Part shown: positions 10,331 to 49,919 of the stretch, piece after piece
Numbering within the stretch: position 1 is the stretch's first letter
Layout of the letters: every line of letters begins with the position of its first letter
Origin: Hydrogenophaga sp.
Lineage (GTDB): Bacteria; Pseudomonadota; Gammaproteobacteria; Burkholderiales; Burkholderiaceae_C
DNA: 64,000 nucleotides
Assembly: GCF_025699295.1 (NCBI RefSeq)
Contig: NZ_JAILWB010000025.1
Coordinates: 1-64,000 of the forward strand
Direction: 5' to 3'
Notes under the pieces: generated by a model
Seen by the model: only the letters and a program-made list of their open reading frames with translations
The model's database searches: none
Told to the model about the DNA's origin: nothing
Made by a program: the position numbers and the translations under genes

Positions 10331-10434
10331 CGGGTTCGCACCGGCCTGTCGATCTCCGGTGGTCTGGATCGTCGTGGATGCAGGAGGCCTGCCCCCGCGG
10401 GTCGCCGATCCCTTTCAACCCACAGGAGAGACAC

Positions 10435-30299: not shown

Positions 30300-31637
30300 A
30301 TGAGCCAAAACACCCAGGGAATCGAACGCCACACCTGTGACGTTCTCGTGATCGGCGGCGGGCCCGCCGGCTCCACCGTGGCGCCCTTGCTGGCGCAAAA
30401 AGGCCACCGCGTGGTGCTGCTGGAAAAAGCGCACCACCCACGCTTTCACATCGGCGAATCGTTGCTGCCGGCCAACCTGCCGCTGCTCGAGCGCCTGGGC
30501 GTGGCCGACGAGGTGCGCGCCATCGGGCAGTACAAACCCGGCGCCGAATTCGTCTCGCCCCACCACGACCACACACAGACCTTCGAGTTCGCCGACGCCT
30601 GGGACAAGTCCATGCCCTACGCCTACCAGGTCCGGCGCGCGGAGTTCGACGAGATCCTGATCCGCAACGCGCAGCGCCAGGGTGCCGAGGTGCACGAAGG
30701 CTGCCAGGCGCGTTCGGTGGAATTCCTGCCCGACCAGTCGGTGCGCGTGCACGCCCGGTACGACGATGGCCGCGAGACCGTGTGGGACGCGAAGTTCCTG
30801 GTCGACGCCTCGGGGCGCGACACTTTTCTGGCGTCCCGTCTCAAGATCAAGGAGCGCAACCCGCGCCACAACAGCGCGGCGGTGTACGGCCATTTCGCCA
30901 ACGCCCGGCGCAACACCGGCGAGGCCGAAGGCAACATCACCATCTTCTGGTTCGACCACGGCTGGTTCTGGTTCATCCCGCTCACCGGCGGCGCCACCAG
31001 CGTGGGCATGGTCACCTGGCCGTATCACATGAAGACCCGCCAGGGCCGCAGCGTGCAGCAGTTCCTGATGGACAACGTGGCCACGTGCGCGGGCCTGGCC
31101 GAGCGCCTGAAGGACGCCAGCCTGCTCGGTCCGGTGGAGGCCACCGGCAACTTCTCCTATTCCGCGCAGCGCAACCACGGCAGCAACTACCTGATGCTGG
31201 GCGACGCCTACACCTTCATCGACCCGGTGTTTTCCTCGGGCGTGTGGCTGGCCATGAACGGCGGCGAGCTGGGCGCGCAGACCATTGACACCTGCCTGCG
31301 CGAGCCGGCCCGGGCACGCGCCGCGCTCAGGCACTTCGACCGCCAGAGCCGCCACGGCCCCCGCGCGTTCTCCTGGTTCATCTACCGCGTGACCAACCCC
31401 ATCATGCGCGACTTCTTCATGGGCCCGCGCAACCTCTTCCGCGTCAAGGAGGCCCTGCTCTCCACGCTGGCCGGCGACGTGTATGGCGGTGCGCCGATCG
31501 GGCGTTCGCTGCTGGCCTTCAAGCTGCTGTACTACGCGGCCAATCTCGCGCAGCCGCGGCGCGCTTTCGCTGCCTGGCGCAAGCGCCGCTTCAACGTTAG
31601 CCCGACCGACGAGGCCGCGCAGGCCCACCCATCGTGA
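30300..31637 (+). CDS. Flavin-dependent halogenase-like oxidoreductase (aryl-polyene cluster)
   Basis: A 445-residue FAD-dependent enzyme. The dinucleotide motif GGGPAG is at residues 19-24, followed by HHPRFHIGESLLPANLPLL. The motif WFWFIP at 222-227 fits WxWxIP, the signature of flavin-dependent halogenases, which blocks monooxygenation. GDAYTFIDPVFSSGVWLAMNGG completes the FAD site. Halogenase-like enzymes of this type occur in xanthomonadin clusters, whose pigments are brominated. It is the first gene of the + arm, and its stop overlaps the chorismatase start as GTGA. A geranylgeranyl-reductase-type oxidoreductase is the alternative, but the WxWxIP motif argues against it. Confidence 0.8.
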   Translation: MSQNTQGIERHTCDVLVIGGGPAGSTVAPLLAQKGHRVVLLEKAHHPRFHIGESLLPANLPLLERLGVADEVRAIGQYKPGAEFVSPHHDHTQTFEFADAWDKSMPYAYQVRRAEFDEILIRNAQRQGAEVHEGCQARSVEFLPDQSVRVHARYDDGRETVWDAKFLVDASGRDTFLASRLKIKERNPRHNSAAVYGHFANARRNTGEAEGNITIFWFDHGWFWFIPLTGGATSVGMVTWPYHMKTRQGRSVQQFLMDNVATCAGLAERLKDASLLGPVEATGNFSYSAQRNHGSNYLMLGDAYTFIDPVFSSGVWLAMNGGELGAQTIDTCLREPARARAALRHFDRQSRHGPRAFSWFIYRVTNPIMRDFFMGPRNLFRVKEALLSTLAGDVYGGAPIGRSLLAFKLLYYAANLAQPRRAFAAWRKRRFNVSPTDEAAQAHPS

Positions 31638-32647
31638 ACCTGCGCCACGAAACCCGGCCCGCCACGGACGGCAGCGCCCGCGGCGACACGCTGGGCGGCA
31701 TCGCCATCGGTGACTTCAAGCACGCACCGCCCGCCGTGGCCTGGCCGCGGCAGGCCTTGCGTGCGCGAGTGCTCGGCGGCGGCGCGGCGCAGCTGCACGA
31801 ATGCTGGCGGGCCGACGGCGCCCTGCAGGAAGGCCACAGCCAGGGCATCCACTGGCGACGCACGGCCGGGCTGCTGTTCGGCGTGATTGAGCTCGACGAA
31901 GACAGCGCCGCACCAGCGCGCGCGGACGAGACACCGCTGCAGGCCACCAGCCGGGTGCTGTACGAACGCCTCTTCGCCCTGCTGCGCGCGCAGCGTTTGC
32001 CGCACCTGTGGCGCGTGTGGAACTACCTCGCGCGCATCAACGAGGAGACGCACGGCCTGGAGCGCTACCGCCAGTTCAACCTCGGCCGGTTCGCGGCTTT
32101 CGTGCAGGCGCAGCGCGAGACCGGCGGCCAGGTGCCCGCGGCGTGCGCCATCGGCGTGCGGCATGGCCCGCTGTCCGTGGCCTTCCTGGCCGGCAGCACG
32201 CCCCTGGTGCCGCTGGAGAACCCGCGCCAGCTCAGCGCCTGGCGCTACCCCGCGCAGTACGGCCCGCGCGCGCCCACCTTCTCGCGCGCCGCGCTGGCCT
32301 ACCCCGACGGGCAGGAGGCGCTGTTCATCTCCGGCACCGCCAGCATCGTGGGCCACGAAACGCTGCACGCGGGTGACGTGGCCGCGCAGTGCCGCGAGAC
32401 CGTGCGCAACCTCGACACGATGGTCCAGCAGGCCAACCGCCAGGCCCGCTCGGCGCGGCCGTTCGCGCTCGCCGGCCTGAGCCACCGCGCCTACGTGCGC
32501 CACGCGTCGGATGCCGACGCCGTGCAGCGCACGCTGCAGCCGCTGCTGGGTGACGCGCCGCTGGTCTGCGTGCAGGCCGACATCTGCCGCACCGACCTGC
32601 TGGTGGAAATCGAATCGCAGGGCGTCCAGCCGCTGCCCTCGGCATGA
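31634..32647 (+). CDS. xanB2: Chorismatase, XanB2/Hyg5-type
   Basis: A 337-residue member of the FkbO/Hyg5/XanB2 chorismatase family. Characteristic stretches are LPHLWRVWNYLARIN, GLERYRQFNLGRFAAF and FISGTASIVGHETLHAGD, followed by QCRETVRNL. XanB2 of Xanthomonas converts chorismate to 3- and 4-hydroxybenzoate, the aryl starter of xanthomonadin. It starts with a GTG overlapping the halogenase stop. It gives the cluster its own starter supply. Which hydroxybenzoate isomer is made cannot be judged here. Confidence 0.85.
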   Translation: MNLRHETRPATDGSARGDTLGGIAIGDFKHAPPAVAWPRQALRARVLGGGAAQLHECWRADGALQEGHSQGIHWRRTAGLLFGVIELDEDSAAPARADETPLQATSRVLYERLFALLRAQRLPHLWRVWNYLARINEETHGLERYRQFNLGRFAAFVQAQRETGGQVPAACAIGVRHGPLSVAFLAGSTPLVPLENPRQLSAWRYPAQYGPRAPTFSRAALAYPDGQEALFISGTASIVGHETLHAGDVAAQCRETVRNLDTMVQQANRQARSARPFALAGLSHRAYVRHASDADAVQRTLQPLLGDAPLVCVQADICRTDLLVEIESQGVQPLPSA

Positions 32648-33441
32648 ACACCTCCGCACGCCCCGCCACATCCCTGCTGTGGGGCCTGTACGAGCACGTC
32701 GCCATGGTGGTGGGCCTGGCCTCGCTGGCCGTGGTCTGCCTGAGCTGGACGCCGCTGGCGCTGCTGCTGTACCCGGTGCTGCCGCACCGCTTCGGCCGCT
32801 GGCTCGGGCGCCAGGCCATCATGCGCGGCTTCCGGCTGTACGTGGGCATCCTGCGCACGCTGTGCGCCTGCCGCTTCGACCTCTCGGCCCTCGATGCGCT
32901 GCGCGACCAGGGTCCGATGGTGATCGCCGCCAACCACCCCAGCCTGCTCGACGCCGTGCTGATCACCTCCCGCCTGCCCGACGCGGTGTGCGTGATGAAG
33001 GCCGAGCTGATGGACAACCCGCTGTTCGGCGCCGGTGCGCGGCTGGCGCGCTACGTGCGCAACGACAACCTGCTGGGCGCGGTGCTGCGCTGCCGCGCCG
33101 AACTGCGCCAGGGCGCGCAGGTGGTGATCTTTCCCGAAGGCACGCGCACGCGGAACTACCCGGCCAACCCGCTCAACCCGCTGCTGCGCTCGACCGCGCT
33201 GATTGCCACACGCGCGCGCGTGCCGGTGCAGACGCTGATCGTCGAGTTCTCCAGCCCCTACCTGGGCAAGGGCTGGCCGCTGTGGCGCCGCCCGCAGCTG
33301 CCACTGACCTGTACCATCCGCCTCGGCCACCGCTTCGAGGCACCGCGCAACGCGCGCGACTTCACCGCCGAACTGGAGGCCTACTTCCGCCGCGAACTCG
33401 GCCCCGACCATCCCCCTGCCACAGCGAGGGCCGCCGCCTGA
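32644..33441 (+). CDS. 1-acylglycerol-3-phosphate-type acyltransferase
   Basis: A 265-residue PlsC-family acyltransferase with one N-terminal membrane span (residues about 15-45), the catalytic NHPSLLD motif (HxxxxD form) and the phosphate-binding FPEGTRTR. It starts with ATG overlapping the chorismatase stop as ATGA. In aryl-polyene clusters such enzymes are thought to join the polyene acid to a glycerolipid or sugar-lipid anchor. Housekeeping phospholipid synthesis is less likely in this context. Confidence 0.85.
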   Translation: MNTSARPATSLLWGLYEHVAMVVGLASLAVVCLSWTPLALLLYPVLPHRFGRWLGRQAIMRGFRLYVGILRTLCACRFDLSALDALRDQGPMVIAANHPSLLDAVLITSRLPDAVCVMKAELMDNPLFGAGARLARYVRNDNLLGAVLRCRAELRQGAQVVIFPEGTRTRNYPANPLNPLLRSTALIATRARVPVQTLIVEFSSPYLGKGWPLWRRPQLPLTCTIRLGHRFEAPRNARDFTAELEAYFRRELGPDHPPATARAAA

Positions 33442-33446
33442 CCCCC

Positions 33447-34214
33447 ATGCCCCAGCCCCCCGCCGCCAGCCCCACGCACCTGGTGCTCATCCCCAGCTAC
33501 AACCCGGGTCGCAAGGTGCTGGAGACGGTGCGTGCCGCGCGCGCGCACTGGACGCCGGTGTGGGTGGTGGTCGACGGCAGCACCGACGGCTCGGCCGACT
33601 GGCTCACCACCGAAGCCGCGACCGACCCCGGCCTGCGCGTGATCGTGCTGCCGCACAACCGGGGCAAGGGCGCGGCCGTGCTGGAAGGCATCACGCGCGC
33701 CGCGCAGGCCGGCTTCAGCCACGCGCTGACCATGGACTCCGACGGCCAGCACCCCGAGACCCTGATCCCCACGTTCATGGCCGCCTCACAGGCCGCGCCC
33801 GACGCCATGGTGCTGGGCAAACCCGTGTTCGGCCCCGAAGCGCCCGCGCTGCGCGTGAACGGGCGCAAGGTCTCCAACGGCTGGGCCAACCTGGAAACCC
33901 TGGGCATGGGCATCGGCGACTCGCTCTACGGCTTCCGCGTCTACCCCATCGCCGCGCTGATGCGCGTGATGCACGGCACCCGCTTCATGCGCCGCTTCGA
34001 CTTCGACCCCGAAGCCGTCGTGCGCCTATGCTGGGCCGGCGTGCGCCCGATCAACATCGACGCCCCGGTGCGCTACTTCTCACCGGCCGAAGGCGGCGTA
34101 TCCCACTTCAAGTACCTGCGCGACAACCTGCTGCTGAGCTGGATGCACACGCGCTTGTTCATCGGCTTCGTGCTGCGCCTGCCGCTGCTGGTGTGGCGGC
34201 GGGTGGTGGGGTGA
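33447..34214 (+). CDS. Family 2 glycosyltransferase
   Basis: A 255-residue GT2 enzyme. VLIPSYNPGRKVLETV opens the GT-A fold, VVVDGSTDGSADW binds the nucleotide, and MDSDGQHPETL supplies the metal-binding aspartates. A short hydrophobic helix near the C-terminus (LFIGFVLRLPLLVW) may anchor it to the membrane. Dolichyl-phosphate-mannose-synthase-like enzymes of this kind occur in aryl-polyene clusters and may glycosylate the lipid anchor. The ATG at 33447 is 5 bases after the acyltransferase stop. Confidence 0.85.
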   Translation: MPQPPAASPTHLVLIPSYNPGRKVLETVRAARAHWTPVWVVVDGSTDGSADWLTTEAATDPGLRVIVLPHNRGKGAAVLEGITRAAQAGFSHALTMDSDGQHPETLIPTFMAASQAAPDAMVLGKPVFGPEAPALRVNGRKVSNGWANLETLGMGIGDSLYGFRVYPIAALMRVMHGTRFMRRFDFDPEAVVRLCWAGVRPINIDAPVRYFSPAEGGVSHFKYLRDNLLLSWMHTRLFIGFVLRLPLLVWRRVVG

Positions 34215-34224
34215 TGGACTGTCC

Positions 34225-34530
34225 TCAGGCAGGCTGGGCCGCGAATTTGACCCCCAGCGCGCGCGCCACCTTCATCACGGTTTCAAAGCGGGGTTTTGCG
34301 CCGGGCGCAAGCGCCTTGTAGAGGCTCTCGCGGCCCAGACCCGCGTCCTTGGCCACCTGCGCCATCCCCTTGGCTCGAGCCACGTCACTGAGCGCGAGAA
34401 GCAGCAGGTCGGGATCGTCGGCTTCGAGCACGGCCGTCATGTACTCGGCAATGGCCTCGTCGTCGTCGAGGTACCGGGCCGCATCGAACGCGACCAGCTT
34501 GAGCGGGGTTTTGGTCTTGGCTTTTGTCAC
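34225..34530 (-). CDS. Antitoxin, HI1420-type addiction module antidote
   Basis: A 101-residue Xre-like antitoxin. FDAARYLDDDEAIAEYMTAVLE and ALSDVARAKGMAQVAKDAGL, followed by SRESLYKAL-like wording (here GRESLYKAL) and the HTH helix FETVMKVARALGVKF, match the HI1420 antidote family. The GTG start at 34530 overlaps the toxin stop as GTGA. The toxin is upstream of the antitoxin, the reverse of the common order but usual for HigBA-like pairs. Confidence 0.88.
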   Translation of the reverse strand: MTKAKTKTPLKLVAFDAARYLDDDEAIAEYMTAVLEADDPDLLLLALSDVARAKGMAQVAKDAGLGRESLYKALAPGAKPRFETVMKVARALGVKFAAQPA

Positions 34531-34829
34531 AGGTCGTCTCCCAGTTCGGATGCCAGCTTCAAGGCATGGCGGATGTCTCGCTTCTGACTCGACTTGTCGC
34601 CCGCGTTGAGCATGACGACGATCACCCTTCCACGGCGGACGAAGTAGAGCCGGTAGCCCGGCCCGTAGTGCACCCTCATTTCAGAGACATCGCCCTCGAC
34701 AGACCGCCAGTCCCCGAGGTTGCCGGCTTCGGCCTGCCGCAGGCGCGCCGCGATGCGGATCTGAGCCCGTTTGTCCTTCAGGGTATCGAGCCAGTCAGCG
34801 AACTCTTCGGTCTGAAGGACAGAGAACAT
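34527..34829 (-). CDS. RelE/HigB-type toxin
   Basis: A 100-residue toxin of the HI1419 / RelE superfamily. Landmarks are FADWLDTLKDKRAQIRIAAR, MRVHYGPGYRLYFVRRGRV and VVMLNAGDKSSQKRDI. Such toxins are ribosome-dependent or free mRNA interferases. The ATG at 34829 was chosen over a longer frame because it begins the family's FSVLQTEEF opening and lies just after a palindromic operator. It pairs with the antitoxin at 34225. Confidence 0.88.
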   Translation of the reverse strand: MFSVLQTEEFADWLDTLKDKRAQIRIAARLRQAEAGNLGDWRSVEGDVSEMRVHYGPGYRLYFVRRGRVIVVMLNAGDKSSQKRDIRHALKLASELGDDL

Positions 34830-34838
34830 GGACGGAAT

Positions 34839-34854
34839 GTATCTAATCGGATAC
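34839..34854. promoter_or_regulatory. Dyad upstream of the toxin-antitoxin operon
   Basis: GTATC-TAATCG-GATAC lies 10 bases upstream of the toxin start in an AT-rich patch. Toxin-antitoxin complexes usually repress their own promoter through such a dyad. Confidence 0.5.
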
Positions 34855-35335: not shown

Positions 35336-36436
35336 TCAGAACTGCAGAAAACTCACCCCCGCCCCCAGGCTGGTCTGCCGGAAGTTGTAATCCGACAGCG
35401 TTTCGCCATAGCCGTTGAAGAGCTGCACGTACCAGCGAAGCCCGTTGGGCTGATCTCGGGACACGGGGTACGTCCATTCGAGCGAACTGCCTCCGCTGTT
35501 TTCACTGCGCAGGTTGCTGCGGTGATGCAGTGACACGGTGTGCAACCCGCTCGCCCAACCGAGGGTGAACTCGGCCTTGCCGCGGTACGCCAGGAGATCG
35601 GGGTTGTTGTCGTTCTCGATGCGCTCCCGCAGGCGCCGATTGAGTCTGGTGGTGAAAGTCCAGTTTCCGCGCTCGAATCCGGCGCCGAGGTAGACGCGGT
35701 TCCAGCTTCGAGACAAGGGGTCTGACTGCCCGTTCGACTGGTGCGCCAGGCCCAGCTGCGAGAAACGCCATTGCCAGCCGAACGGCCATGCGCGAAGGCC
35801 CGGTGCGGTGGGCACCACATAGATCAGTTCGGGCTGGTAATCGGTGTTGCGAAAGGGTCGTGATTCCGCGTGGTTGTAGACCTGCCACAGGGTCTGCATG
35901 GTGAAAGCGCCCCACAGATCGGCGCCCGCAAAACCGACGTTCTGCAGGAGCTTGGTACGCAGCGACAGCTGGAACTTCGCCTCTTCCCGGCGGTTGTCGG
36001 GCACCGAAACAGCCGCCTGCGTCGGCGACCGGGGTGCGCGGTTGACGCGCGACGTGACGTGCAGGGGCAGCACATAGTTCGGTTGGTAGCCCACGAAATT
36101 GAACACACCGCGCTTGTCGGCGGGGTCCAGCTCCCAGAATTTCGAGAGCAGGCTGCTGGATGGGGTCGGTGATGGTGCGGGGGCCGGAGGCAGAGGCCCG
36201 CCCGACTGCGTGAGCAGCGAGGGCACTTCGGCTTCTGTGCCGGGCAACGGCTGCATGGCCGCCGGCGCCGTGGGGGCCGGTGCCCGGCCGGCCAGCTTGT
36301 CGTAGCAGTTGAGGCGGTCCGTCGCAGCGCCAATGAGGGCGCACTGCTCCAGCGAGGCCGCCCCGTCGGCGGGCCCCTGCGCAGCGGCGCCGGTGGCGAG
36401 GCCGCACAGCGCGATAAGCGTCGCACAGCGTGGCAT
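35336..36436 (-). CDS. pldA: Outer-membrane phospholipase A1
   Basis: A 366-residue protein with a signal peptide (MPRCATLIALCGLATGAAAQ) and a proline-rich linker, followed by a 12-strand beta-barrel domain. The catalytic set is present as HQSNG (His232, Ser234) and, twelve residues after the serine, Asn246 in LSRSWNR, exactly as in E. coli PldA. It ends in phenylalanine, as outer-membrane barrels usually do. A GTG at 36454 would overlap fabG by 7 bases; the ATG at 36436 leaves 11 bases. It hydrolyses outer-leaflet phospholipids. It sits between fabG and a fabG remnant, so it seems to have been inserted at the end of the pigment operon. Confidence 0.88.
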   Translation of the reverse strand: MPRCATLIALCGLATGAAAQGPADGAASLEQCALIGAATDRLNCYDKLAGRAPAPTAPAAMQPLPGTEAEVPSLLTQSGGPLPPAPAPSPTPSSSLLSKFWELDPADKRGVFNFVGYQPNYVLPLHVTSRVNRAPRSPTQAAVSVPDNRREEAKFQLSLRTKLLQNVGFAGADLWGAFTMQTLWQVYNHAESRPFRNTDYQPELIYVVPTAPGLRAWPFGWQWRFSQLGLAHQSNGQSDPLSRSWNRVYLGAGFERGNWTFTTRLNRRLRERIENDNNPDLLAYRGKAEFTLGWASGLHTVSLHHRSNLRSENSGGSSLEWTYPVSRDQPNGLRWYVQLFNGYGETLSDYNFRQTSLGAGVSFLQF

Positions 36437-36447
36437 GGCGCGGGGCG

Positions 36448-37179
36448 TCAGCACATGCCGCCGTTGATCGACAGAACCTGCCCGCTGATGTAGGCCGCCT
36501 TGTCGGATGCGAGGAACCCCACCAGCTCGGCCACTTCGTCAGCGCGGCCGGCCCGTTGCATGGGCACCAGGCGTTTGATGGTGTCGGCGTCGAAGCTGCC
36601 GGCGCTCATGTCGGTGTCGATGATGCCGGGAGCCACGGCGTTGACGGTGATGCCGCGGGTGGCGAGTTCGAAGGCGAGGGACTTGGTGGCCGCGTGCAGC
36701 GCGCCCTTGGCGGCGGCGTAGTTCACCTGGCCCTTGTTGCCCATGACGCCGGCGATGGAGGTGATGCTGATGATGCGGCCCCAGCGCGTGCGCAGCATGG
36801 GCAGCGAAAGGGGCTGCGTGACGTTGAAGAAGCCGTTGAGGGACACGTCCATCACGCGGTCCCACTGCTCGCCGCTCATGCCGGGGAAGACGGCATCGTC
36901 GTGGATGCCGGCGTTGTTCACCACGATCTGCACCGCGCCGGCTTCGAGCAGCGCGGCCAGCGCGGCGGCGCAGCGCTCGCGGTCGGTCACGTCGAACGCC
37001 ACGGCCTGGGCACTGCCGCCGGCGTCGCGGATCTCGCGCGCGAGCAGGCTGGCTTTGTCCAGCGCGCGGTGGGCGTGCACGATGACGTGGTGCCCGTCGG
37101 CAGCGAGGCGGCGACAGATTGCCGCGCCGATGCCGCCGCTGCCACCGGTGACGAGTGCGCGCTTGATGTCGTTCTCCAT
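36448..37179 (-). CDS. fabG: 3-oxoacyl-ACP reductase of the aryl-polyene cluster
   Basis: A 243-residue short-chain dehydrogenase. TGGSGGIG at 11-18 binds NADPH, NNAG at 88-91 is present, and the catalytic residues are Ser141, Tyr154 and Lys158 (NYAAAK). It corresponds to the ApeQ-type ketoreductase that reduces the beta-keto group in each polyene extension cycle. It is downstream of the dehydratase gene with a 26-bp gap. Its last 150 bases are duplicated as a remnant at 35191. Confidence 0.9.
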   Translation of the reverse strand: MENDIKRALVTGGSGGIGAAICRRLAADGHHVIVHAHRALDKASLLAREIRDAGGSAQAVAFDVTDRERCAAALAALLEAGAVQIVVNNAGIHDDAVFPGMSGEQWDRVMDVSLNGFFNVTQPLSLPMLRTRWGRIISITSIAGVMGNKGQVNYAAAKGALHAATKSLAFELATRGITVNAVAPGIIDTDMSAGSFDADTIKRLVPMQRAGRADEVAELVGFLASDKAAYISGQVLSINGGMC

Positions 37180-37205
37180 GTCGGTGTCCCGGTTCGTTCG
37201 TTGTT

Positions 37206-37658
37206 TCAGAGCGCGTCCGCGTCCAGCACCACGGCAGCGCGCCCTTCGAGCAGGCAGCGGTCTCCGTGGTGCACGGCGAAGCGGTAGAGCACGTGGTTCG
37301 CATCCCCCGAGACGCGCTCGGCGCGCACGGCCAGCGCGCCGGGCAGGTCGTCCAGCCGGTCCACGTGCAGGGTGACGCCGCGCACGCTGGTGAGGTAGCC
37401 CTGGCGCGGCGCGGCGTCAGTGCCGGCCACCAGCGCGCCGTGCACCGCCATGGCCTGCGCCGCGTACTCGATGCCGCAGGCCGCGCCCAGGCGGCCGGCC
37501 TCTCGCAGCGGGTGGGCCGGGTCGGTGTGGCCGACGGCACGGCACACGATGTGTTCGCCGGACCAGTCCGTCACCGCATCCAGCAGGCACATGCTGCCCT
37601 GATGGGGGATGCGCGCGGCGATCCAGGCGTGGTCCAGGGCGTGCGGGTTCATGTTCAT
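37206..37658 (-). CDS. Hot-dog 3-hydroxyacyl-ACP dehydratase, ApeP-like
   Basis: A 150-residue FabZ-like hot-dog protein. The active-site histidine is His19 in ARIPHQGSMCLLDAV, and the second conserved segment is CGIEYAAQAMAVHGAL, which carries the glutamate. It matches the ApeP-type dehydratase of aryl-polyene clusters, which forms a heteromer with a second dehydratase (here probably the small protein at 45779). It gives the trans double bond in each cycle. Two in-frame ATGs at 37658 and 37652 are possible starts. Confidence 0.82.
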   Translation of the reverse strand: MNMNPHALDHAWIAARIPHQGSMCLLDAVTDWSGEHIVCRAVGHTDPAHPLREAGRLGAACGIEYAAQAMAVHGALVAGTDAAPRQGYLTSVRGVTLHVDRLDDLPGALAVRAERVSGDANHVLYRFAVHHGDRCLLEGRAAVVLDADAL

Positions 37659-37664
37659 GCGGGT

Positions 37665-39742: not shown

Positions 39743-39811
39743 GGGAGGACTCGAAAAACGGGACCGGGCATTGTCTCAGAAGGGTTTCGACGCATGGGGG
39801 CAGGGGTACCT

Positions 39812-41972: not shown

Positions 41973-44311
41973 GGGGCGCCCTTCTGGCGCGCGGCAAAGG
42001 CCGCCGAGAGCAGCAGCGCGAGCAGCGCGCCCGGCCCGACCGTGACGCCGATGGCGTGCAGCACCGGCACCGACGACCAGGCCAGCACGCCGAAGCCGAT
42101 GGCGGTGGTGGTGCTGGCCACCCCGATGGACAGCAGGGTCTCGTCGTCCAGCGTTTCACCGCGCCCGACGCGGTCGAAGAACAGCGCGTAGTTGGAACCC
42201 ACGGCCACGGTGAGCAGCATGCCCACCAGGTGCAGCAGGTGCAGGCGCTCGCCGCTGGCGTGCAGGCCGGCCACCACCACCAGCACCGCCATCACCAGCG
42301 GCAGCACCACGCCCACGAGGCGGCGCGCGCTGCGCAGCGCAACGGCCAGCGCGACAACGATGGCCACGAAACCCGCGGCCGAGAGCTGGATCGCCTCCTG
42401 GATGTACTCGCCGTAGAGCGCGTCGAACTCGCCCTTGAGGTCGATGAAGATGGCGCCGCTGCCGGCCAGTGCGGCGCGCACCGCGTCCACCGGGATGTCT
42501 GCAGCCACCGCGTCGGGCGCGGGGCGCAGCGGCAGCAGCACGCTCCAGCCACCGGGGCGCTGCAGCAGCAGGGCGTCGACCACCAGTTCGAGGCCGCTGC
42601 CGTCGAGGTCGGCGCGCGTGAGGTTGGCCGAGGCGCGCGCGGCGCGCACGTCGTCCAGGAAGGGTTGCAGGCGCTCGGCGGACACCGGCGCGTCGACCAG
42701 CGCCTCGCGCAGGCGGGTGGCCAGTTCCTCGGGCGGCGGCAGGCTGGCGCGGCGCGCGTTCTGCGTCGCCTCGCTGGGCAGGAAGCGCGCCGGGCTGTCG
42801 AAGCCGCCGATCAGGCCCTCGTCCACCAGCCGCCGCAGCGCCGCGCCGGCGCGTTCGGCGGCCTGCAGCGCGGCTTCGCGGTCGGGCGCGGTGACCACCA
42901 CCATGTAGCGCGCATCGGGTGCGCCCAGGTCGGCGCGCAGCCGTGCGTCCAGATCGCCTTCGGCCTGGCTGACCGTGGACAGCGCCGACAGGTTGGGGTA
43001 CAGCAGGTCGTGGCGCTGCTGGAACAGGTACACCGCCGCGACCAGCACCAGCGCGACCAGCGGCCAGCGCAGCAGGCCGGCGTGTGCCACGAGCGGGCGC
43101 AGCATGCGGCCCTGGCGCGCGCCGTCGACCAGGTGCACGCCGGGGCCGGCCAGCGCCGGCAGCAGGAAGCGCGTGACCAGCGCGGCCGTGAACACGCCGG
43201 TGAGCGCGTACAGGCCAAGCTGGGCCAGACCGGGAAAGCCCGAAAACAGCAGCGCGCCGAAGCCGAACAGCGAAGTCAGCACGCCCAGGCGCACGGTGGG
43301 CCAGTAGCGCTCGCGCCAGGACGCCACCCCCAGGCGGCCGGACTGCACGAAGTAGTAGATGGCGTAGTCCACGGCCTCGCCGATGAGCGCCGCGCCAAAG
43401 CCCACGGTGATGCCGAACACCGTGCCGTGCACCAGGCCGACGACGACGATGGCCGCCAGCGTGCCGCTGAGCACCGGCACCAGCGTGAGCAGCAGCAGGC
43501 GCGCGCGGCGGTAGACGAAACCCAGCAGCAGCGCGATGGCGACAGCGCTCATGAGCGACAGGCGCATGACCTCCTGCTGGATGGTGGCGCGCGCCTGCAC
43601 CGCGAACATGCCGGGGCCGGACATCTCCAGCGTGAGCCCCTGCAGGCCAGGCTGTGCGGTGGCCTGCGCGAAGCGCTCGCGCACCAGCGCGATGGCCGCG
43701 GCCTGCGCGTCGGTGTCGGAGCCGAGCGCGCGCGTCTGCACCAGCAGCATGGCGCGCTCGCCGTCGCGCGAGGCCCAGACGCCGTCGAGCTCGTTGGGCT
43801 GCACGCCCGCGTTCAGACCCGAAACCAGCTCGACCAGCTCGCCCGTGGGGTCGCGCGCCAGATAGGGCTTGAACAGCAGGCCGGCCGAGGAGCTGAGCAG
43901 GTCGACGCTGTTGTTCACCGCGCCGCGCAGGCCTTCGACGCTGAAGCGCCCGGGCGTGACGGCATCGCTGAGCAGGTAGCGGTGGTCCAGCAGGAAGTCG
44001 CGCGCGGTCTCCAGCGCGCCGGCTTCGCCGTTCTGCACCGAGGCCAGGCTGTCGTCGCTGGCCAGCGCGGCGCGCAGCGCGCGCGAGGCGTCGGCGCGCT
44101 GGCTGGCGTCGCCGCCGGCGATGGCGATCATCAGCAGGCGCGAGACCGCGCCCTCGCGCAGCTGGTCGACCATGACCTGCTGCTCCGCCGTGGGCCGCGA
44201 GGGCAGGAAAAAGGAGACGTCGGCCGAAAACCGCGTATTGAGCAACAGGACCACGCCCAGCGCCATGGCCGCCAGCCAGACCAGCAGGGCACGCAGGGTG
44301 CCGTGCGTCAT
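41969..44311 (-). CDS. MMPL/RND-family exporter, ApeM-like
   Basis: A 780-residue membrane exporter with two repeats of one span plus a periplasmic domain plus five spans. The first helix is LLVWLAAMALGVVLLLN; GFGAALIGEAVDYAIYYF and the second-repeat VGMLLTVAVGSNYALFFDRV mark the two transmembrane blocks. MMPL proteins linked with a LolA-like carrier in aryl-polyene clusters move the lipid-anchored pigment towards the outer membrane. The gene overlaps the LolA-like gene upstream and the hydrolase gene downstream by 4 bp each. Confidence 0.9.
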   Translation of the reverse strand: MTHGTLRALLVWLAAMALGVVLLLNTRFSADVSFFLPSRPTAEQQVMVDQLREGAVSRLLMIAIAGGDASQRADASRALRAALASDDSLASVQNGEAGALETARDFLLDHRYLLSDAVTPGRFSVEGLRGAVNNSVDLLSSSAGLLFKPYLARDPTGELVELVSGLNAGVQPNELDGVWASRDGERAMLLVQTRALGSDTDAQAAAIALVRERFAQATAQPGLQGLTLEMSGPGMFAVQARATIQQEVMRLSLMSAVAIALLLGFVYRRARLLLLTLVPVLSGTLAAIVVVGLVHGTVFGITVGFGAALIGEAVDYAIYYFVQSGRLGVASWRERYWPTVRLGVLTSLFGFGALLFSGFPGLAQLGLYALTGVFTAALVTRFLLPALAGPGVHLVDGARQGRMLRPLVAHAGLLRWPLVALVLVAAVYLFQQRHDLLYPNLSALSTVSQAEGDLDARLRADLGAPDARYMVVVTAPDREAALQAAERAGAALRRLVDEGLIGGFDSPARFLPSEATQNARRASLPPPEELATRLREALVDAPVSAERLQPFLDDVRAARASANLTRADLDGSGLELVVDALLLQRPGGWSVLLPLRPAPDAVAADIPVDAVRAALAGSGAIFIDLKGEFDALYGEYIQEAIQLSAAGFVAIVVALAVALRSARRLVGVVLPLVMAVLVVVAGLHASGERLHLLHLVGMLLTVAVGSNYALFFDRVGRGETLDDETLLSIGVASTTTAIGFGVLAWSSVPVLHAIGVTVGPGALLALLLSAAFAARQKGAP

Positions 44312-44880
44312 GGGGTCTTCACCGGCTCGATGCGCATCTCGATGCGGTCACCATCGGCCTGCAGGTAGTCGATGCCCAGCACCTGTTCGCGCACGCCCTT
44401 GACGGTGATGCGCTGCAGCAGCGAGGCGATGCGTGAATCGTTCGGCACCAGGGTCAGAACCCAGGCGTCGACCTCGCCACTGAGCGCGAGGCGGTAGTTC
44501 TGCTCGAGCGAGGCGCGGTTGCCCGCCAGCGTGCTGCGGATGCTGTCGACGAAGGCCGCCACTTCCGGGCGCGCGATGAGCCGGATCGACATCTTGCGGT
44601 TGTCGCGCTCCAGGGTCAGCGTGTCCTTGTCGAGCACCACGGTTTCAGGCCTGGGCGTGAGGGTGCGTTTCTCCAGCCGGTCGGGCGCGGTGTAGCGCAT
44701 CTCGCCGGTGGCGATGACCGGCTTGTCGAGCACGGCCAGGTAACGCTTCTCGACAAAGGTCGCCTCGCCGCCGCGGTTGCGCGCGAGTTCGGCCATGAGC
44801 TGGTCGATGTCGAAGCCGGCATGCGCCAGGGTGCTCGCACCGCAGAGCAACAGGCCGGTGATGAATTGTCGAAGCGTCAT
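44308..44880 (-). CDS. LolA-like outer-membrane lipoprotein carrier, ApeL-like
   Basis: A 190-residue periplasmic protein. The signal peptide MTLRQFITGLLLCGASTLAHA precedes a LolA-fold domain with FDIDQLMAELARNRGGEATF and FVEKRYLAVLDKPVIATGEMRY. LolA-like proteins bind hydrophobic acyl groups in an open barrel; here it probably shuttles the polyene lipid from the MMPL exporter to the outer membrane. It overlaps the MMPL start and the acyltransferase stop by 4 bp each. Confidence 0.85.
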   Translation of the reverse strand: MTLRQFITGLLLCGASTLAHAGFDIDQLMAELARNRGGEATFVEKRYLAVLDKPVIATGEMRYTAPDRLEKRTLTPRPETVVLDKDTLTLERDNRKMSIRLIARPEVAAFVDSIRSTLAGNRASLEQNYRLALSGEVDAWVLTLVPNDSRIASLLQRITVKGVREQVLGIDYLQADGDRIEMRIEPVKTP

Positions 44881-45782
44881 GAACGTTGCCAGAAATCGTA
44901 GAAGTTGAACCAGTTGTAGGGTGCGCGGCGGCAGAAGTCACCGAGGCGGTCGGCATAGGCCTGCATGGCGCTGGCGATGGCGGCTTCGCGGTCGCCGCGC
45001 TCGACATGGGTGAAATCGGCCAGTGGCTCGAAATGCAGCTCGTAGCGGTTGCCGCCCAGGTACAGGCCGGCCATGAAGAACACCGGCCGGCGCAGCATGG
45101 CCGCCATGCGCCAGGGACCGACCGGAAACCGCGCCGGCGCGCCCAGGAACAGGCATTCTGCCGTGCTGTCGTGGGCCAGCGAGCGGTCAGCCAGCAAACC
45201 CACAAGGGAGCCGGCATCGAGCCGGTCGCGCGCCCTGAGCATGGAGTCCGGGTGGCCCAGCGGCACCACGTCCTGCTGCGCCTGAGGGTTGATGGCGCCC
45301 AGGATGGCGTTGATCTTGCGCGCGTTCTCCTCGTACATGAGCATGGCCAGCGGCACGTGGGCGTGCGCGTGGGCCATGGCGCGCAGCACCTCGAAACTGC
45401 CGAGGTGAGCGCCGAGCAGCAGCGCACCGGGCTGGCGCGCCAGCGCGGCCTGCACCGCCTCGTGGCCGACGAACCGGATGTCGAACAGGTCGAAGCGGTC
45501 GTTGAGCAGATAGACGCGGTCGTGCACCGTGCTGGCGAAACTCATCACGTGGCGGCAGGCGTCGGCCCAGGTGGCGGGGCGCCCGAGCACGCGCTCGAGG
45601 TAGATGCGCCCGGTGCGGCGGGCACTGGGCGAGAAGAGCACGAAGTAGAGCGCGATGAAGCGCAATACCAGTCGCGCCACGGGCCGCCCCAGGCGCAGCG
45701 AGAGCCACACCATGAAGCGCAGCACGCCGAGGTGGCTGCGCTCCTGCTGGCGCATCCAGTCGGGCGGCGAGGGGTTGCTCAT
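44877..45782 (-). CDS. LpxL/HtrB-type acyltransferase
   Basis: A 301-residue lipid A-type acyltransferase with an N-terminal span near residues 30-55 and the motif LLGAHLGSFEVLRAM, the HxxxxE catalytic pair, then LLADRSLAHDS. It would transfer an acyl or polyenoyl chain from an ACP to a lipid. Together with the PlsC-like enzyme at 32644 it provides two acylation steps, as in other aryl-polyene clusters. Both ends overlap neighbours by 4 bp. Confidence 0.85.
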   Translation of the reverse strand: MSNPSPPDWMRQQERSHLGVLRFMVWLSLRLGRPVARLVLRFIALYFVLFSPSARRTGRIYLERVLGRPATWADACRHVMSFASTVHDRVYLLNDRFDLFDIRFVGHEAVQAALARQPGALLLGAHLGSFEVLRAMAHAHAHVPLAMLMYEENARKINAILGAINPQAQQDVVPLGHPDSMLRARDRLDAGSLVGLLADRSLAHDSTAECLFLGAPARFPVGPWRMAAMLRRPVFFMAGLYLGGNRYELHFEPLADFTHVERGDREAAIASAMQAYADRLGDFCRRAPYNWFNFYDFWQRS

Positions 45783-46090
45783 GGCGCGGCCGGTGGCACG
45801 AGGCTGCCGCTGGCGACTTCGCGGCCGTCGCAGCGCACGCTGAACGCCACCGTGCCGCGCGGCGTGGTGCGCAGCGTGAAGCGCAGCGCCTGCGAGGGCC
45901 CGACGGGCTCGAAGAACTTGGCCTGCGCGATCTGCCAGCCGGTGGCCTGCGGCGTGCCGCGCATGCGTGCCGCCAGCAGCACCGCGTGGTCGAGCAGCAC
46001 CACACCGGGCACGATGGGGCGCACCGGGAAATGGCCGGCAAAAGCCGGGTGATCGGCTGGCACGGCCCAGGTGGCTTCAGCCGTGTCCAT
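45779..46090 (-). CDS. Small hot-dog dehydratase, ApeI-like
   Basis: A 103-residue hot-dog protein with the FabA/FabZ-type motif HPAFAGHFPVRPIVPGVVLLDH. It is shorter than a stand-alone FabZ, which fits the ApeI-type partner that forms a heteromeric dehydratase with the protein at 37206. The ATG at 46090 (MDTAEATWAVPADH) was chosen by the motif position and overlaps the AMP-ligase gene by 14 bp. Confidence 0.75.
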   Translation of the reverse strand: MDTAEATWAVPADHPAFAGHFPVRPIVPGVVLLDHAVLLAARMRGTPQATGWQIAQAKFFEPVGPSQALRFTLRTTPRGTVAFSVRCDGREVASGSLVPPAAP

Positions 46091-47426
46091 GCGGCCCCAC
46101 CTTCTCGGCATGAAGCGCCTGCAGCGCGGTGCGCGGCAGCTTGCCGGTGGCGTTGCGCGGCAGGGCATCGAGCAGCACCAGCGGACGCGGCAGGAAGATC
46201 GCGTCCAGCCGCTGGCGCAGCGCGGCCATGAGCGTGCGCGCGTCCAGCGTGGGCGCGACCACGAAGGCGCACAGGCGCGTCACGCCGTCGTGGCCCGCCT
46301 CGTCGGGCAGGAAGAAGGCGGCGTCGACCACCCCGGGCACGGCACCGATCTGGTGATTGAGGTAGGCCAGCGAGGTGCGCTTGCCGGCGATGTTGATCAG
46401 GTCGGCATGGCGGCCGTGCAGCAGGAAACTGCCGTCGGCGCGGGACTCGATGACGTCGGCCAGCGGCACGCGGCCTTCGACGTGGCCGCCGTTGGCGTAG
46501 GTGGTATCGCCCTCGTGTTCGAGCCGAACCGCCTGCATCAGCTGCCAGGCCGCGCCTTCGATCGTGCGGCGGCTGGCCAGCGCGGACGATTCGGTGGAAC
46601 CGTAGATTTCGTGCACCGGCGCGCCGCAGTACGCCTCGGCGCGGCGCGCCAGCTCGGGGCTCAGGGGCGCGGTGGCCGAGAGGATGAGATCCAGCGGGGG
46701 CACCGCCAGGCCCGAGGCGAGCAGTGCCGAGAGGTGGAACGGCGTGGTCACCAGCATGCGCGGGCGCGGCACCGCCTGCAGCGCAGCGACGATGTCCTGC
46801 GGATAGAACGGCTTGCCGGCGGCGAAGCTGCTGCCACCATGCAACGCCACGAGAAAAGTGGACTCGAAGCCGTAGCTGTGCTGCGTGGGCACGGTGCCGA
46901 CGATGGCCACCGGTCGATCCAGCAGGCCCAGCGCGCGCGATTCGGCGCGCCCGTTGCGCACCAGCTTGCCCCAGGTCTTGCGGTGCGGTTGCGGCAGGCC
47001 GGTGGAGCCCGAGGTGAACAGGATGGCCACCACGCGCTCGTCATCGATCTGCGGCATCCCGGCATCCGCCGGGCGCGGCAGGGTGGCGAGGTCCGGGAAC
47101 ACGGTGCCGGGCACACCGGGCACCGTGTCGGGCCTGTCACCGAGCCAGCACACGCCGGGGTGATCGGCCGCGAGGCGCTGCAGGGTCTCGGGCGACTGCG
47201 ACGAGGGCTGCAGGCTGACCTTGCCCGCGATCAGGCCGGCGGCGAAACCGACCGCGAAGTGGTAACGGTCCTCGCACATGTTGAGCAACCAGTCGCCCGC
47301 GGGCAACTGCGCCGCGAGCGCGTGCGCGTCGCCCAGGAAATCGCGCACCGTCACCGCGCCCTGCGCGCGCCAGGCGAACACGTCGTCCGGCGCGCGGTCG
47401 CTGATCAGCGGCGAGGTGGCGTTCAT
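46077..47426 (-). CDS. Aryl-AMP ligase (ANL family), ApeH-like
   Basis: A 449-residue adenylation enzyme, shorter than acyl-CoA synthetases of about 520 residues. The phosphate loop is FTSGSTGLPQPHRKTW; HEIYGSTESSALASR and LHGRHADLINIAGKRTSL follow; the catalytic lysine is in PRNATGKLPR. In aryl-polyene clusters this enzyme loads the hydroxybenzoate starter onto an ACP. The substrate would come from the chorismatase at 31634. The ATG at 47426 overlaps the membrane-protein stop as ATGA, and the longer upstream frame is shadow sequence. Confidence 0.88.
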   Translation of the reverse strand: MNATSPLISDRAPDDVFAWRAQGAVTVRDFLGDAHALAAQLPAGDWLLNMCEDRYHFAVGFAAGLIAGKVSLQPSSQSPETLQRLAADHPGVCWLGDRPDTVPGVPGTVFPDLATLPRPADAGMPQIDDERVVAILFTSGSTGLPQPHRKTWGKLVRNGRAESRALGLLDRPVAIVGTVPTQHSYGFESTFLVALHGGSSFAAGKPFYPQDIVAALQAVPRPRMLVTTPFHLSALLASGLAVPPLDLILSATAPLSPELARRAEAYCGAPVHEIYGSTESSALASRRTIEGAAWQLMQAVRLEHEGDTTYANGGHVEGRVPLADVIESRADGSFLLHGRHADLINIAGKRTSLAYLNHQIGAVPGVVDAAFFLPDEAGHDGVTRLCAFVVAPTLDARTLMAALRQRLDAIFLPRPLVLLDALPRNATGKLPRTALQALHAEKVGPHGHG

Positions 47427-48094
47427 GGCTGGGAAGACCCGGCGCTGCCACCGCCACGCTGCGCCGACTCGCGCTTGTAGGCCTGCACGATGGCGGCAAT
47501 GCCCGGGCGCTCGTGCGGCGGCAGCAGAAACAGGCGGCAGACGTGCTCGATCACGAACATCAGACCGATCAGCGGGCCGGTCAGCAGGTTGGCGTGCACC
47601 GACCAGATGGCGGGCGGCGCCCAGAGGAAGAGCAGCGTGGAGACCAGCGCGTTGGTGAAGAAGAACAGTGTCCAGGCCAGGGTCACGCCCCGCGTGTAGC
47701 GCAGCTTGCGCGCGGACAGTTCGTGGGAAAAGATGCGCCGCGCCATGCGCGTGATGAGCGCTTCGCCCGGGCCGAGCAGCGACTTGCCGAAGTACACGCC
47801 CAGCGCCACGTGAATGCCCAGGTGCTGCAGGTAGTACATCAGCGGCACGTTCAGGCGCAGCCGCGGCCAGAGCCAGGCCAGCGCGACCGCGAGGGCCAGC
47901 ACACCCGCCGCGCGCACCACCCGCTGCGGCAGCCGCCACAGCGCCATGAGCACCGCCGCCCCGATGGGCAGCACGGCGACCGCGGCGTTGAAATCGGGGT
48001 TGCCCCAGCCGGCGCTGCCCACGTGCGCGGCGACCACCCAGGCCACCATGAGGAGCAGCACGCCGAGGTCCCGCAGCACCGAGGGGAGCTTCAT
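47423..48094 (-). CDS. COG4648-type membrane protein, ApeG-like
   Basis: A 223-residue membrane protein with five or six spans and the motif YFGKSLLGPGEALITRMARR, followed by SARKLRYTRGVTLAWTLFF. Proteins of this family occur in aryl-polyene clusters between the carrier protein and ligase genes. Their role is unknown, but an association with pigment transfer at the inner membrane is plausible. A GTG immediately precedes the chosen ATG at 48094. It lies 4 bases after the ACP stop. Confidence 0.8.
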   Translation of the reverse strand: MKLPSVLRDLGVLLLMVAWVVAAHVGSAGWGNPDFNAAVAVLPIGAAVLMALWRLPQRVVRAAGVLALAVALAWLWPRLRLNVPLMYYLQHLGIHVALGVYFGKSLLGPGEALITRMARRIFSHELSARKLRYTRGVTLAWTLFFFTNALVSTLLFLWAPPAIWSVHANLLTGPLIGLMFVIEHVCRLFLLPPHERPGIAAIVQAYKRESAQRGGGSAGSSQP

Positions 48095-48098
48095 CACG

Positions 48099-48383
48099 CT
48101 ACTGCGTGCGCTGGCTGGCGATGTAGGCCGTCAGGGCGCGCGGCGAGGCGAAGATCTTCTCGTTGTCCTCGTTGTCCGAGCGCATCTGGAACCCGTAGCG
48201 CTTGGAGATGACGAGCGAGATTTCGAGCATGTCGATCGAATCCAGCCCCATGCCTTCGCCATACAGCGGGCCGTCGGGGTCCACCTCGCCGGGTTCGAGC
48301 TCCATGTTGAGGGCTTCGATGATCAGCGCGACCACCTCGGGCACGAGGGCGTCGACGGTGGCGGGGGAAACGGGTTCGGTCAT
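48099..48383 (-). CDS. Acyl carrier protein 1 of the aryl-polyene cluster
   Basis: A 94-residue carrier protein. Ser49 in GMGLDSIDMLEISL is the phosphopantetheine attachment site. Its sequence is acidic, as usual. It and the carrier at 49680 correspond to the ApeE/ApeF pair, which carry the growing aryl polyene and the malonyl units. A GTG at 48392 is an alternative start. The gap to the ketosynthase gene is 30 bp. Confidence 0.88.
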   Translation of the reverse strand: MTEPVSPATVDALVPEVVALIIEALNMELEPGEVDPDGPLYGEGMGLDSIDMLEISLVISKRYGFQMRSDNEDNEKIFASPRALTAYIASQRTQ

Positions 48384-48413
48384 GTCATTCACTCGGGAGA
48401 AAAAACAGGCGCC

Positions 48414-49676
48414 TCAGCGGGCGGGCGGTGCACGAAACGCCAACACGGCGTTGCTGCCGCCAAAGGCAAAGGAGTTGGACAGCGCGGCCCGCAGCGGCAC
48501 GCCACGGCGGCCCTGCAGCACATGGTCCACGCCCTCGCAGGCGGGGTCGATGCGGCCGGCCAGGTGGGCGGTGGGCGGCACGGCCTGCTCGCGCAGCGCC
48601 AGCGCGGTCACCACCGCTTCGACGGCACCGCAGGCACCGAGCAGGTGGCCGTGCATGGATTTGGTAGCGCTCACGGCCAGCCTCGCCGCGCCATCGCCGA
48701 ACACCTCGCGCAGGGCGGAGATCTCCACCGGGTCGCCCTCGGTGGTGGCGGTGCCGTGGGCATTGACGTAATCGATGTCGCCGGGCGCAAGGCCGGCGTC
48801 GGCCAGCGCGCCGCGCAGGGCACGCGCCTGGCCCTGCCGGTGCGGTCGGACCAGGTGGCTGTGATCGCAACTGGTGCCATAGCCGACGATTTCACCATGG
48901 ATGGTTGCGCCCCGTGCGGCGGCGTGGTCCCAGGCCTCCAGCACCAGAGCCGCGCCGCCTTCGCCCAGCACCAGACCGGCGCGGTCGGCGGCGAACGGCC
49001 GGCAGGCGGTGGGCGCGGTCTGCGCATCGCCGGGGGCCAGCACGCGCATCGCCTCCCAGGCGCGCACCACGCCGTAGGACTGGCAGACATCGGAGCCACC
49101 AGTGAGCATGACCGAGGCCTCACCGCTGCGCACGCGCCGGAAGGCCTCGCCAATGGCGATGCCCGAGGAGGCGCAGGCCGCCGTGTGGCTGGTGCTCACA
49201 CCGCCCAGGCCCAGCTGTATCGAGATGTGCGCGTTGACCGCGTTGTTCATGCCCTGTACGACCGCCAGGGGGGATAGACGTTCACGGCCTTTGAGCCACA
49301 TGTCGCGGTTGCCGCGCTCGTGCGCCGCCACGCCACCCAGCGCCGTGCCCCAGATGCAGCCCCAGTCCTCGCGGGACTCGTCGCCCGCAGCGGGCTGGCG
49401 CGGCAGGCCGGCCTGCGCCCACGCCAGGAAGGCCGCGGCCGTGCCCAGCTGGGCGAAGCGCTCCATCATCAGGGCCAGGGGCTTGCCGAGCAGGGCCTCG
49501 GGGTCGAAGTCCGGGCAGCTTGCCACCGGTGCCGACAGCGGGCGCGGCAGGTCGTCGGTGAGCAGGTGGCGCACGGCCGACTGACCGGCCAGCAGGCGTT
49601 CGAAAAAGTCTGTGTCGTTGCCACCGTAGGGGCTGATCACCCCGAGGCCGGTGATCGCGACGCGGTGAGCACACAT
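48414..49676 (-). CDS. Beta-ketoacyl-ACP synthase II-like, ApeR-like
   Basis: A 420-residue FabF-type ketosynthase. Cys168 (HTAACASSG), His307 (NAHGTATTEGD) and His344 (KSMHGHLLGACG) form the active site, and NSFAFGGSN closes the domain. In aryl-polyene clusters this ketosynthase carries out a condensation distinct from the main elongation. The ATG at 49676 is 3 bases after the second ACP stop. Confidence 0.88.
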   Translation of the reverse strand: MCAHRVAITGLGVISPYGGNDTDFFERLLAGQSAVRHLLTDDLPRPLSAPVASCPDFDPEALLGKPLALMMERFAQLGTAAAFLAWAQAGLPRQPAAGDESREDWGCIWGTALGGVAAHERGNRDMWLKGRERLSPLAVVQGMNNAVNAHISIQLGLGGVSTSHTAACASSGIAIGEAFRRVRSGEASVMLTGGSDVCQSYGVVRAWEAMRVLAPGDAQTAPTACRPFAADRAGLVLGEGGAALVLEAWDHAAARGATIHGEIVGYGTSCDHSHLVRPHRQGQARALRGALADAGLAPGDIDYVNAHGTATTEGDPVEISALREVFGDGAARLAVSATKSMHGHLLGACGAVEAVVTALALREQAVPPTAHLAGRIDPACEGVDHVLQGRRGVPLRAALSNSFAFGGSNAVLAFRAPPAR

Positions 49677-49679
49677 GGC

Positions 49680-49919
49680 TCAGCCGGTCTTGAGCGCCGC
49701 CAGCGAGTCGATCACCGCCTGCATGTCGGCGACGGTTTTCGGAGGCGCCATGTCGGACGGGATTTCGATGCCCATGCGGTCCTCGGCCTCGAACATCAGT
49801 TCGGCCAGCATCAGCGAGTCCACCCCGAGATCGGCCAGCAGCGCGGCAGGCTCCACCCGTTCGGGCGCGACGCCCAGGCGGTCGGTGAGAAAGGTTCGAA
49901 TCAGGTCGGTGGAGCTCAT
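49680..49919 (-). CDS. Acyl carrier protein 2 of the aryl-polyene cluster
   Basis: A 79-residue carrier protein with the attachment serine Ser35 in LADLGVDSLMLAELMFE. It is the first gene of the minus-strand pigment arm. The ATG at 49919 starts the ACP domain directly. No obvious ribosome site precedes it (upstream reads GGGCGTGCCTC), and a longer frame upstream has no ACP features. Confidence 0.86.
   Translation of the reverse strand: MSSTDLIRTFLTDRLGVAPERVEPAALLADLGVDSLMLAELMFEAEDRMGIEIPSDMAPPKTVADMQAVIDSLAALKTG

Follow-up and report, generated by a model that had tools for sequence, protein, structure and literature searches.

Gene content of the aryl-polyene locus

The window analyzed here, a 64,000-nucleotide stretch of DNA from Hydrogenophaga sp. 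(contig NZ_JAILWB010000025.1, positions 1 to 64,000), carries its aryl-polyene genes as one contiguous set spanning 30300-49919, as judged from reading frames, third-position GC and Pfam matches. The set begins with hal (30300-31637), which encodes a flavoprotein of the flavin-dependent halogenase (FDH) family. By sequence, hal is the counterpart of XanB1, one of the two halogenase-like types present in Xanthomonas. An earlier annotation of the window, referred to here as the original prediction, had described a xanthomonadin-like aryl-polyene locus with its own chorismatase and a halogenase-like enzyme; the genes it named are all present at the positions it gave, and both gene set and gene order agree with an intact cluster for a yellow membrane pigment of the xanthomonadin/arcuflavin kind. 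The ketosynthase (KS) with its chain-length factor (CLF)-like partner, the ketoreductase (KR), the dehydratases (DH), the acyl carrier protein (ACP) and the AMP-ligase all occur together, the family of DH1 being unconfirmed. The same gene block recurs among genomes of the genus Hydrogenophaga and, because related genomes show the same gene order, the locus lies far beyond what chance would produce. Its features are as follows, with arc genes named after their Azoarcus counterparts.

30300..31637, plus: XanB1/ArcA-type flavoprotein (hal), FDH family; 445 residues, with GGGPAG, K79, W222-x-W-x-IP and F306-I-D-P-V-F-S-S-G
31634..32647, plus: chorismatase, FkbO/Hyg5 family; predicted 3-/4-hydroxybenzoate supply
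32644..33441, plus: PlsC-like acyltransferase; arcD counterpart by order
33447..34214, plus: family 2 glycosyltransferase; arcE counterpart by order
34225..34530, minus: addiction-module antidote, HI1420 type; an insertion, probably outside the pathway
34527..34829, minus: RelE/ParE-type toxin, HI1419 type, partner of the antidote; insertion
35336..36454, minus: phospholipase A1 (Pfam); also in locus L055
36448..37179, minus: KR, FabG-like; arcH counterpart
37206..37658, minus: putative hot-dog dehydratase 1 (DH1); arcI/ApeP position, weak match to 6qsr_B
37665..38549, minus: ketosynthase partner/CLF-like protein (KS2), ORF16/arcJ type; Ketoacyl-synt_2, similar to 6qsp chain B
38546..39742, minus: ketosynthase KS1; arcK counterpart
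39812..40534, minus: S-adenosylmethionine (SAM) methyltransferase; arcM counterpart
40531..41331, minus: polysaccharide-deacetylase-like protein; arcN counterpart
41328..41972, minus: alpha/beta hydrolase; arcO position
41969..44311, minus: MMPL exporter; arcP counterpart
44308..44880, minus: LolA-like carrier (LolA_3); arcQ counterpart
44877..45782, minus: LpxL-like acyltransferase; arcR counterpart
45779..46090, minus: FabA/ApeI-like dehydratase 2 (DH2); arcS counterpart
46077..47426, minus: aryl-AMP ligase; arcT counterpart
47423..48094, minus: membrane protein, presumably COG4648-like; arcU position, no Pfam family above cut-off
48099..48383, minus: acyl carrier protein 1 (ACP1); arcV counterpart
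48414..49676, minus: ketosynthase KS3, FabF-like
49680..49919, minus: acyl carrier protein 2 (ACP2)

Four-base overlaps join hal to the chorismatase gene and the chorismatase gene to the acyltransferase gene. The methyltransferase, polysaccharide deacetylase, alpha/beta hydrolase, two acyltransferases, glycosyltransferase and membrane protein go beyond the list in the original prediction, as do the toxin–antitoxin pair and phospholipase A1 gene that lie between the plus- and minus-strand halves. DH1 matches no Pfam family, even with the threshold relaxed to E 10, and its similarity to the structural chain 6qsr_B reaches only E 0.16; it is named for its position, which matches that of arcI in the arc table (PMC3949708).

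Comparison with known clusters

The arc genes of Azoarcus sp. BH72, as tabulated in PMC3949708, share the order hal–chorismatase–acyltransferase–glycosyltransferase (arcA-B-D-E), the order KR–DH–KS2–KS1 (arcH-K) and the order methyltransferase–deacetylase–hypothetical–exporter–LolA–acyltransferase–dehydratase–AMP ligase–hypothetical–ACP (arcM-V). However, the arc genes are split over two loci, whereas the set in the window is contiguous. In addition, arcC, F, G, L, W and X lack counterparts in the window locus, KS3 and ACP2 lack counterparts in the arc table, and Azoarcus has dar genes, in contrast to our genome, in which no candidate for DarB was found (see below). The Xanthomonas pig/xan cluster shares the KS/CLF pair, KR, dehydratases, ACP, AMP-ligase, LolA-like and MMPL proteins and a XanB1-type flavoprotein adjoining a chorismatase. 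The yellow-pigment cluster of Lysobacter enzymogenes OH11 shares the type II aryl-polyene assembly genes and a chorismatase homologue, ORF5, but its description in PMC3691225 reports no halogenase gene, and its pigment is nonbrominated. Within Hydrogenophaga there is a precedent in print, an antiSMASH aryl-polyene region of strain SL48, for which xanthomonadin I is listed as one of the similar known clusters (PMC12993520); this region resembles ours in being of the aryl-polyene kind and in coming from a genus of the same name. The window locus is thus a further representative of the xanthomonadin/arcuflavin clusters.

The hal product belongs to the FDH family

The hal product matches Pfam Trp_halogenase (3.9e-31) and contains K79, which we take to occupy the catalytic lysine position of FDHs. 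With this lysine it has all the motifs of the family, GxGxxG, WxWxIP and Fx.Px.Sx.G (PMC7336383), the second in the form of the WFWFIP that the original prediction had correctly located at residues 222-227. The catalytic lysine, WxWxIP and FxDPxFSxG are invariant in 144/144 relatives, and the protein, as read from its sequence, retains every residue on which hypohalite chemistry is known to depend. The ten best chains in the PDB (E 9.8e-36 to 4.6e-60) comprise nine named halogenases and 3nix, an unassigned flavoprotein; the nearest folds include the brominase Bmp2 as well as chlorinases, and fold ranking places the protein nearer to halogenases than to hydroxylases or geranylgeranyl reductases. 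Its score against the NCBIfam CmlS equivalog is 203.7 bits, below the cut-off of 900. Two related proteins, P0003 and P0016 (88% and 85% identical), are listed under the name Hydrogenophaga.

The original prediction had itself raised the prospect that this protein is akin to geranylgeranyl reductases, and would then be unrelated to halogenation. The NCBIfam GG-red-SF model does give 129.7 bits, but this lies below its cut-off of 158.8, the geranylgeranyl reductase 3oz2 is matched at only E 3.2e-6 compared with the values for the ten best chains, and the fold ranking favors halogenases. In the phylogeny proposed as a check, the protein groups with FDHs (FasV, Bmp2, PltA, CndH) and not with geranylgeranyl reductases. 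Because sequence, fold and tree all place it with FDHs, the objection fails; a geranylgeranyl reductase identity is rejected on the PDB E values, the GG-red-SF score and the fold ranking, and we regard kinship of that sort as extremely improbable.

The chorismatase

The product of 31634-32647 matches Pfam FkbO_Hyg5-like_N (4.5e-38) and scores 226.5 bits against TIGR04444, under the cut-off of 325. Its tree places it in a betaproteobacterial group that includes enzymes encoded beside hal and enzymes encoded elsewhere in their genomes, a group nearer to FkbO/Hyg5 (95/84) than to the Xanthomonas XanB2 group, with weak support at depth. The prediction of a dedicated chorismatase stands as to the gene and its FkbO/Hyg5 family, but the label "XanB2-type" is loose, since the enzyme groups apart from Xanthomonas XanB2. 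According to PMC3949708, the product of a chorismatase cannot be predicted from alignment alone, and ArcB yields both 3- and 4-hydroxybenzoate.

Two halogenase-like types in Xanthomonas

A cluster figure legend for Xanthomonas in PMC3838355 labels two genes, "H = halogenase" and, next to XanB2, "XanB1 = putative reductase/halogenase." A search of contigs with the hal product gave 582 confirmed matches, of which the best 80 are the named loci used here. In 8/8 Xanthomonas loci scanned, a relative of the protein (46-49% identity) lies between an ACP and a chorismatase gene, as XanB1 does; Xanthomonas chorismatases fall in a different group from ours, as noted above. A second, distant flavoprotein about 10 kb from XanB1 is visible in three of these eight loci, the other five ending before that point. 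We refer to this second kind as the H-type and searched for it, with the second flavoprotein of locus L048 as the query, in 41 of the 80 named-locus genomes. It is present in 31, including 14/14 Xanthomonas, so that all 14 Xanthomonas genomes tested carry both types. The 10 genomes in which it was not found are those of Lysobacter Root916, Root76, MMG2 and Root690, Luteimonas gilva, two Pseudoxanthomonas, Dokdonella fugitiva, a Frateuria and a Rhodanobacter. The gene order around the H-type gene, KS1–KS2–glycosyltransferase–H–KR, is the same in 4/4 Xanthomonas and one Lysobacter, and this position suggests that it is the H of the legend in PMC3838355.

The Hydrogenophaga genome under study has no H-type gene; the query matches only two XanB1-like genes, at 29-32% identity. 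These are hal and a second XanB1-like flavoprotein gene, hal2, which encodes a protein 53% identical to the hal product and lies outside the window (G000 contig C23:52349-53617; L046:18305-19630). There it adjoins a UbiE-like methyltransferase gene, away from polyene genes, and the pair also occurs in 3/3 other genus members viewed. In the flavoprotein tree, the XanB1-type and hal2 proteins form one group (98/99), separate from the solved halogenases and from the H-type, although its deep positions are uncertain because of long branches, and L117, a long row that falls inside Xanthomonas, is surely misplaced. With CndH, PltA, Mpy16, CmlS, FasV and Bmp2 the hal product shares motifs, fold and sequence family, but the XanB1-type forms a group of its own.

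These results do not support, in the form given, the claim of the original prediction that brominated xanthomonadins are marked by a halogenase together with XanB2: there are two halogenase-like genes in Xanthomonas, and our genome lacks the H-type. Azoarcus also speaks against the claim, since a halogenase adjoins the chorismatase there and the pigment is proposed to be nonbrominated (PMC3949708). The calls of the cluster and of the halogenase family are sound; a halogenated pigment, as the original prediction expected, is possible, but it cannot be read from the genes because hal represents only one of the two Xanthomonas types.

Distribution of the two types

In a sample of 67 genomes of the genus, the main XanB1-type gene is present in 40 and the H-type in 19, all 19 lying within the 40. 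A chorismatase gene lies within 4 kb in 20 of the 39 genus genomes with a single placed hal; of the remaining 19, 16 have a chorismatase elsewhere or on another contig. Across a class-level sample of 370 genomes, the XanB1-type (E 1e-60) occurs in 34, including our own, and the H-type (E 1e-40) in 6, with both found at these thresholds only in G421; a chorismatase is also present, by eye, in 26 of the 34. Genome G416 has a polyene cluster and a chorismatase, with an H-type gene on another contig (L262) behind a second KS1–KS2 pair and no XanB1-type match at E 1e-60. In genus members with both types, the H-type gene lies directly upstream of hal (4/4 loci viewed). In two of these loci (L048:4947-9657 of G015, and L058) it is behind a second KS1–KS2 pair; no such pair was seen beside it in L049 and L059. 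The H-type may travel as its own module with a second polyene synthase.

Genome G003 appears to be a natural deletion of hal. Just upstream of its chorismatase gene (L055, about 10150-10360), hal is reduced to approximately residues 1-27 and 394-445, whereas the visible remainder of the pigment cluster is intact; this is one draft genome, and an assembly error is possible. The reverse loss is seen in G057 (L025), where hal is kept and an acyltransferase gene directly follows where the chorismatase gene is expected. Because some genomes have both types and others just one, and because the close relative G003 has apparently lost most of hal with its neighbors kept, the XanB1-type looks like an optional tailoring gene and not a core gene.

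Linkage of the XanB1-type to polyene genes, scored as at least three core genes in view, is found in 63/80 named loci, in 18/20 class-sample loci (20 of the 33 matching genomes other than our own were viewed) and in 8/9 genus loci with the main hal, compared with 0/4 hal2 loci. The proposition that all XanB1-type genes lie in polyene clusters was rejected, as 17/80 named loci show fewer than three core genes, 12 of these 17 showing none; some named loci are short. At lone XanB1-type loci in the Rhodanobacter/Frateuria group, the neighboring genes, named by eye, look like housekeeping genes in five loci and give no hint of function.

Proposed pathway and product

From the genes, their order, the motifs and the fold class, we infer a probable product, a 3-hydroxybenzoate-primed, membrane-anchored aryl polyene to which an optional XanB1-type enzyme would add no more than part of the halogens found in xanthomonadin I. 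The chorismatase would make 3-hydroxybenzoate, perhaps with 4-hydroxybenzoate, which the AMP-ligase would load onto an ACP. KS1, paired with the CLF-like protein, would then build the conjugated chain together with KS3, KR and the dehydratases, and the methyltransferase would cap the ring oxygen. The acyltransferases, LolA-like carrier and MMPL exporter would fix the polyene acid to an outer-membrane lipid. The XanB1/ArcA-type enzyme most likely acts on the carrier-bound aryl group; because their genes overlap, it and the chorismatase are probably coproduced. In the absence of an H-type enzyme, the pigment would be partly halogenated at best, and perhaps not at all in ordinary medium.

An arcuflavin-like resorcinol ester was considered as an alternative product. 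We take DarB to be FabH-like, and a FabH-family search of the genome, in which DarA was not sought, found no DarB candidate: the only gene above the cut-off is a housekeeping FabH accompanied by plsX/fabD/fabG-like genes, and a subthreshold match is a thiolase (names assigned by eye). The resorcinol ester is thus disfavored, and a membrane-lipid-linked polyene acid, not arcuflavin, would be expected. With carotenoids also considered as the yellow pigment, no phytoene synthase was seen among the PF00494 matches in the genome, which are two in number and correspond to HpnC and HpnD. In a close relative, G053 (L255), a phytoene-synthase-like gene lies beside a CrtI-type desaturase gene.

The bromines of xanthomonadin I sit one on the ring and one on the chain. 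It is tentatively conceivable, though we would not expect it, that the two types are independently inherited flavin halogenases, with the XanB1-type acting on the carrier-bound hydroxyaryl starter and the H-type on the polyene chain. Starter halogenation would explain the overlap of the XanB1-type gene with the chorismatase gene, and chain halogenation the place of the H-type gene just after the KS/CLF pair. If so, Hydrogenophaga strains with the XanB1-type only, such as this one, would make a ring-monohalogenated pigment, strains with both types would make a pigment carrying two halogens, and the pigment of each species could be predicted from its combination of types.

Xanthomonas pigments carry zero to two bromines (PMC3691225), and outside Xanthomonas, Steroidobacter cummioxidans 35Y makes a dibrominated pigment (PMC5979037); no Steroidobacter appears among the best 120 of 7753 matches in an H-type protein search. 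In Azoarcus, where the arcA "halogenase" gene lies beside the arcB chorismatase gene, the heptaene arcuflavin is proposed to be nonbrominated, and the medium as described was LB with 0.5% NaCl, no bromide being listed (PMC3949708). A nonbrominated arcuflavin fits a need for the H-type in bromination, or a XanB1-type enzyme in need of bromide absent from that medium. Our literature search met no paper assigning either bromine to either flavoprotein gene, and on Hydrogenophaga pigment it returned nothing useful.

A reading in which the XanB1-type enzyme needs no partner to make a fully halogenated pigment like xanthomonadin, and the H-type of Xanthomonas is otherwise employed or redundant, seems to us quite unlikely. 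The invariance of the FDH residues in all 144 relatives and the presence of Bmp2 and chlorinases among the nearest folds speak for it, and a bromide-specific enzyme could have idled in the Azoarcus medium as described. Yet arcuflavin, made where arcA adjoins arcB, is proposed to be nonbrominated, and every Xanthomonas genome tested holds both types. Also unlikely, if a little less so, is that the XanB1-type is a halogenase-fold monooxygenase or another flavin enzyme and puts no halogen on the pigment. The strict conservation of the catalytic lysine, WxWxIP and FxDPxFSxG argues against this, arcuflavin as reported requires no oxygen besides 3-hydroxybenzoate and a methyl group, and in L. enzymogenes the pigment comes from a cluster without a reported halogenase gene.

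Several points nonetheless weigh against the optional, partly halogenating role that we favor for the XanB1-type. XanB1 and XanB2 are listed among four open reading frames required for xanthomonadin biosynthesis (PMC3838355), a poor fit to a simple optional halogenase if pigment formation is what is meant. The assignment of arcA to the XanB1-type follows from gene order only, as given in the arc table, and the literature search met no biochemistry or characterized member of the XanB1-type proteins. The named loci with few polyene genes mean that the link between the XanB1-type and polyenes is not universal, and hal2 lies outside the cluster.

Aryl polyenes are among the commonest products of bacterial gene clusters, and brominated pigments are commonly predicted because a halogenase is present in the cluster. 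The present data show that one "halogenase" label hides two families, separable in nature, of which the XanB1-type is, by gene order, present in Azoarcus, where the reported pigment has no bromine. With XanB1-only strains, strains with both types and one apparent deletion all in a single genus, the long-standing question of which enzyme adds bromine to xanthomonadin can be put to a direct test.

Additional features of the window

The HI1419/HI1420-type toxin–antitoxin pair (34225-34829) lies midcluster in a low-GC stretch, and an Na+/H+ antiporter-like gene is found there in L052 and L055. The phospholipase A1 gene is also within the cluster in one relative (L055:5281-6303), and a role for its product in anchoring or lipid remodeling is possible. 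Beyond the cluster, two nearby plus-strand frames at 56278-64003 resemble, by eye, a two-partner secretion pair, the very long secreted protein of which extends past the end of the window.

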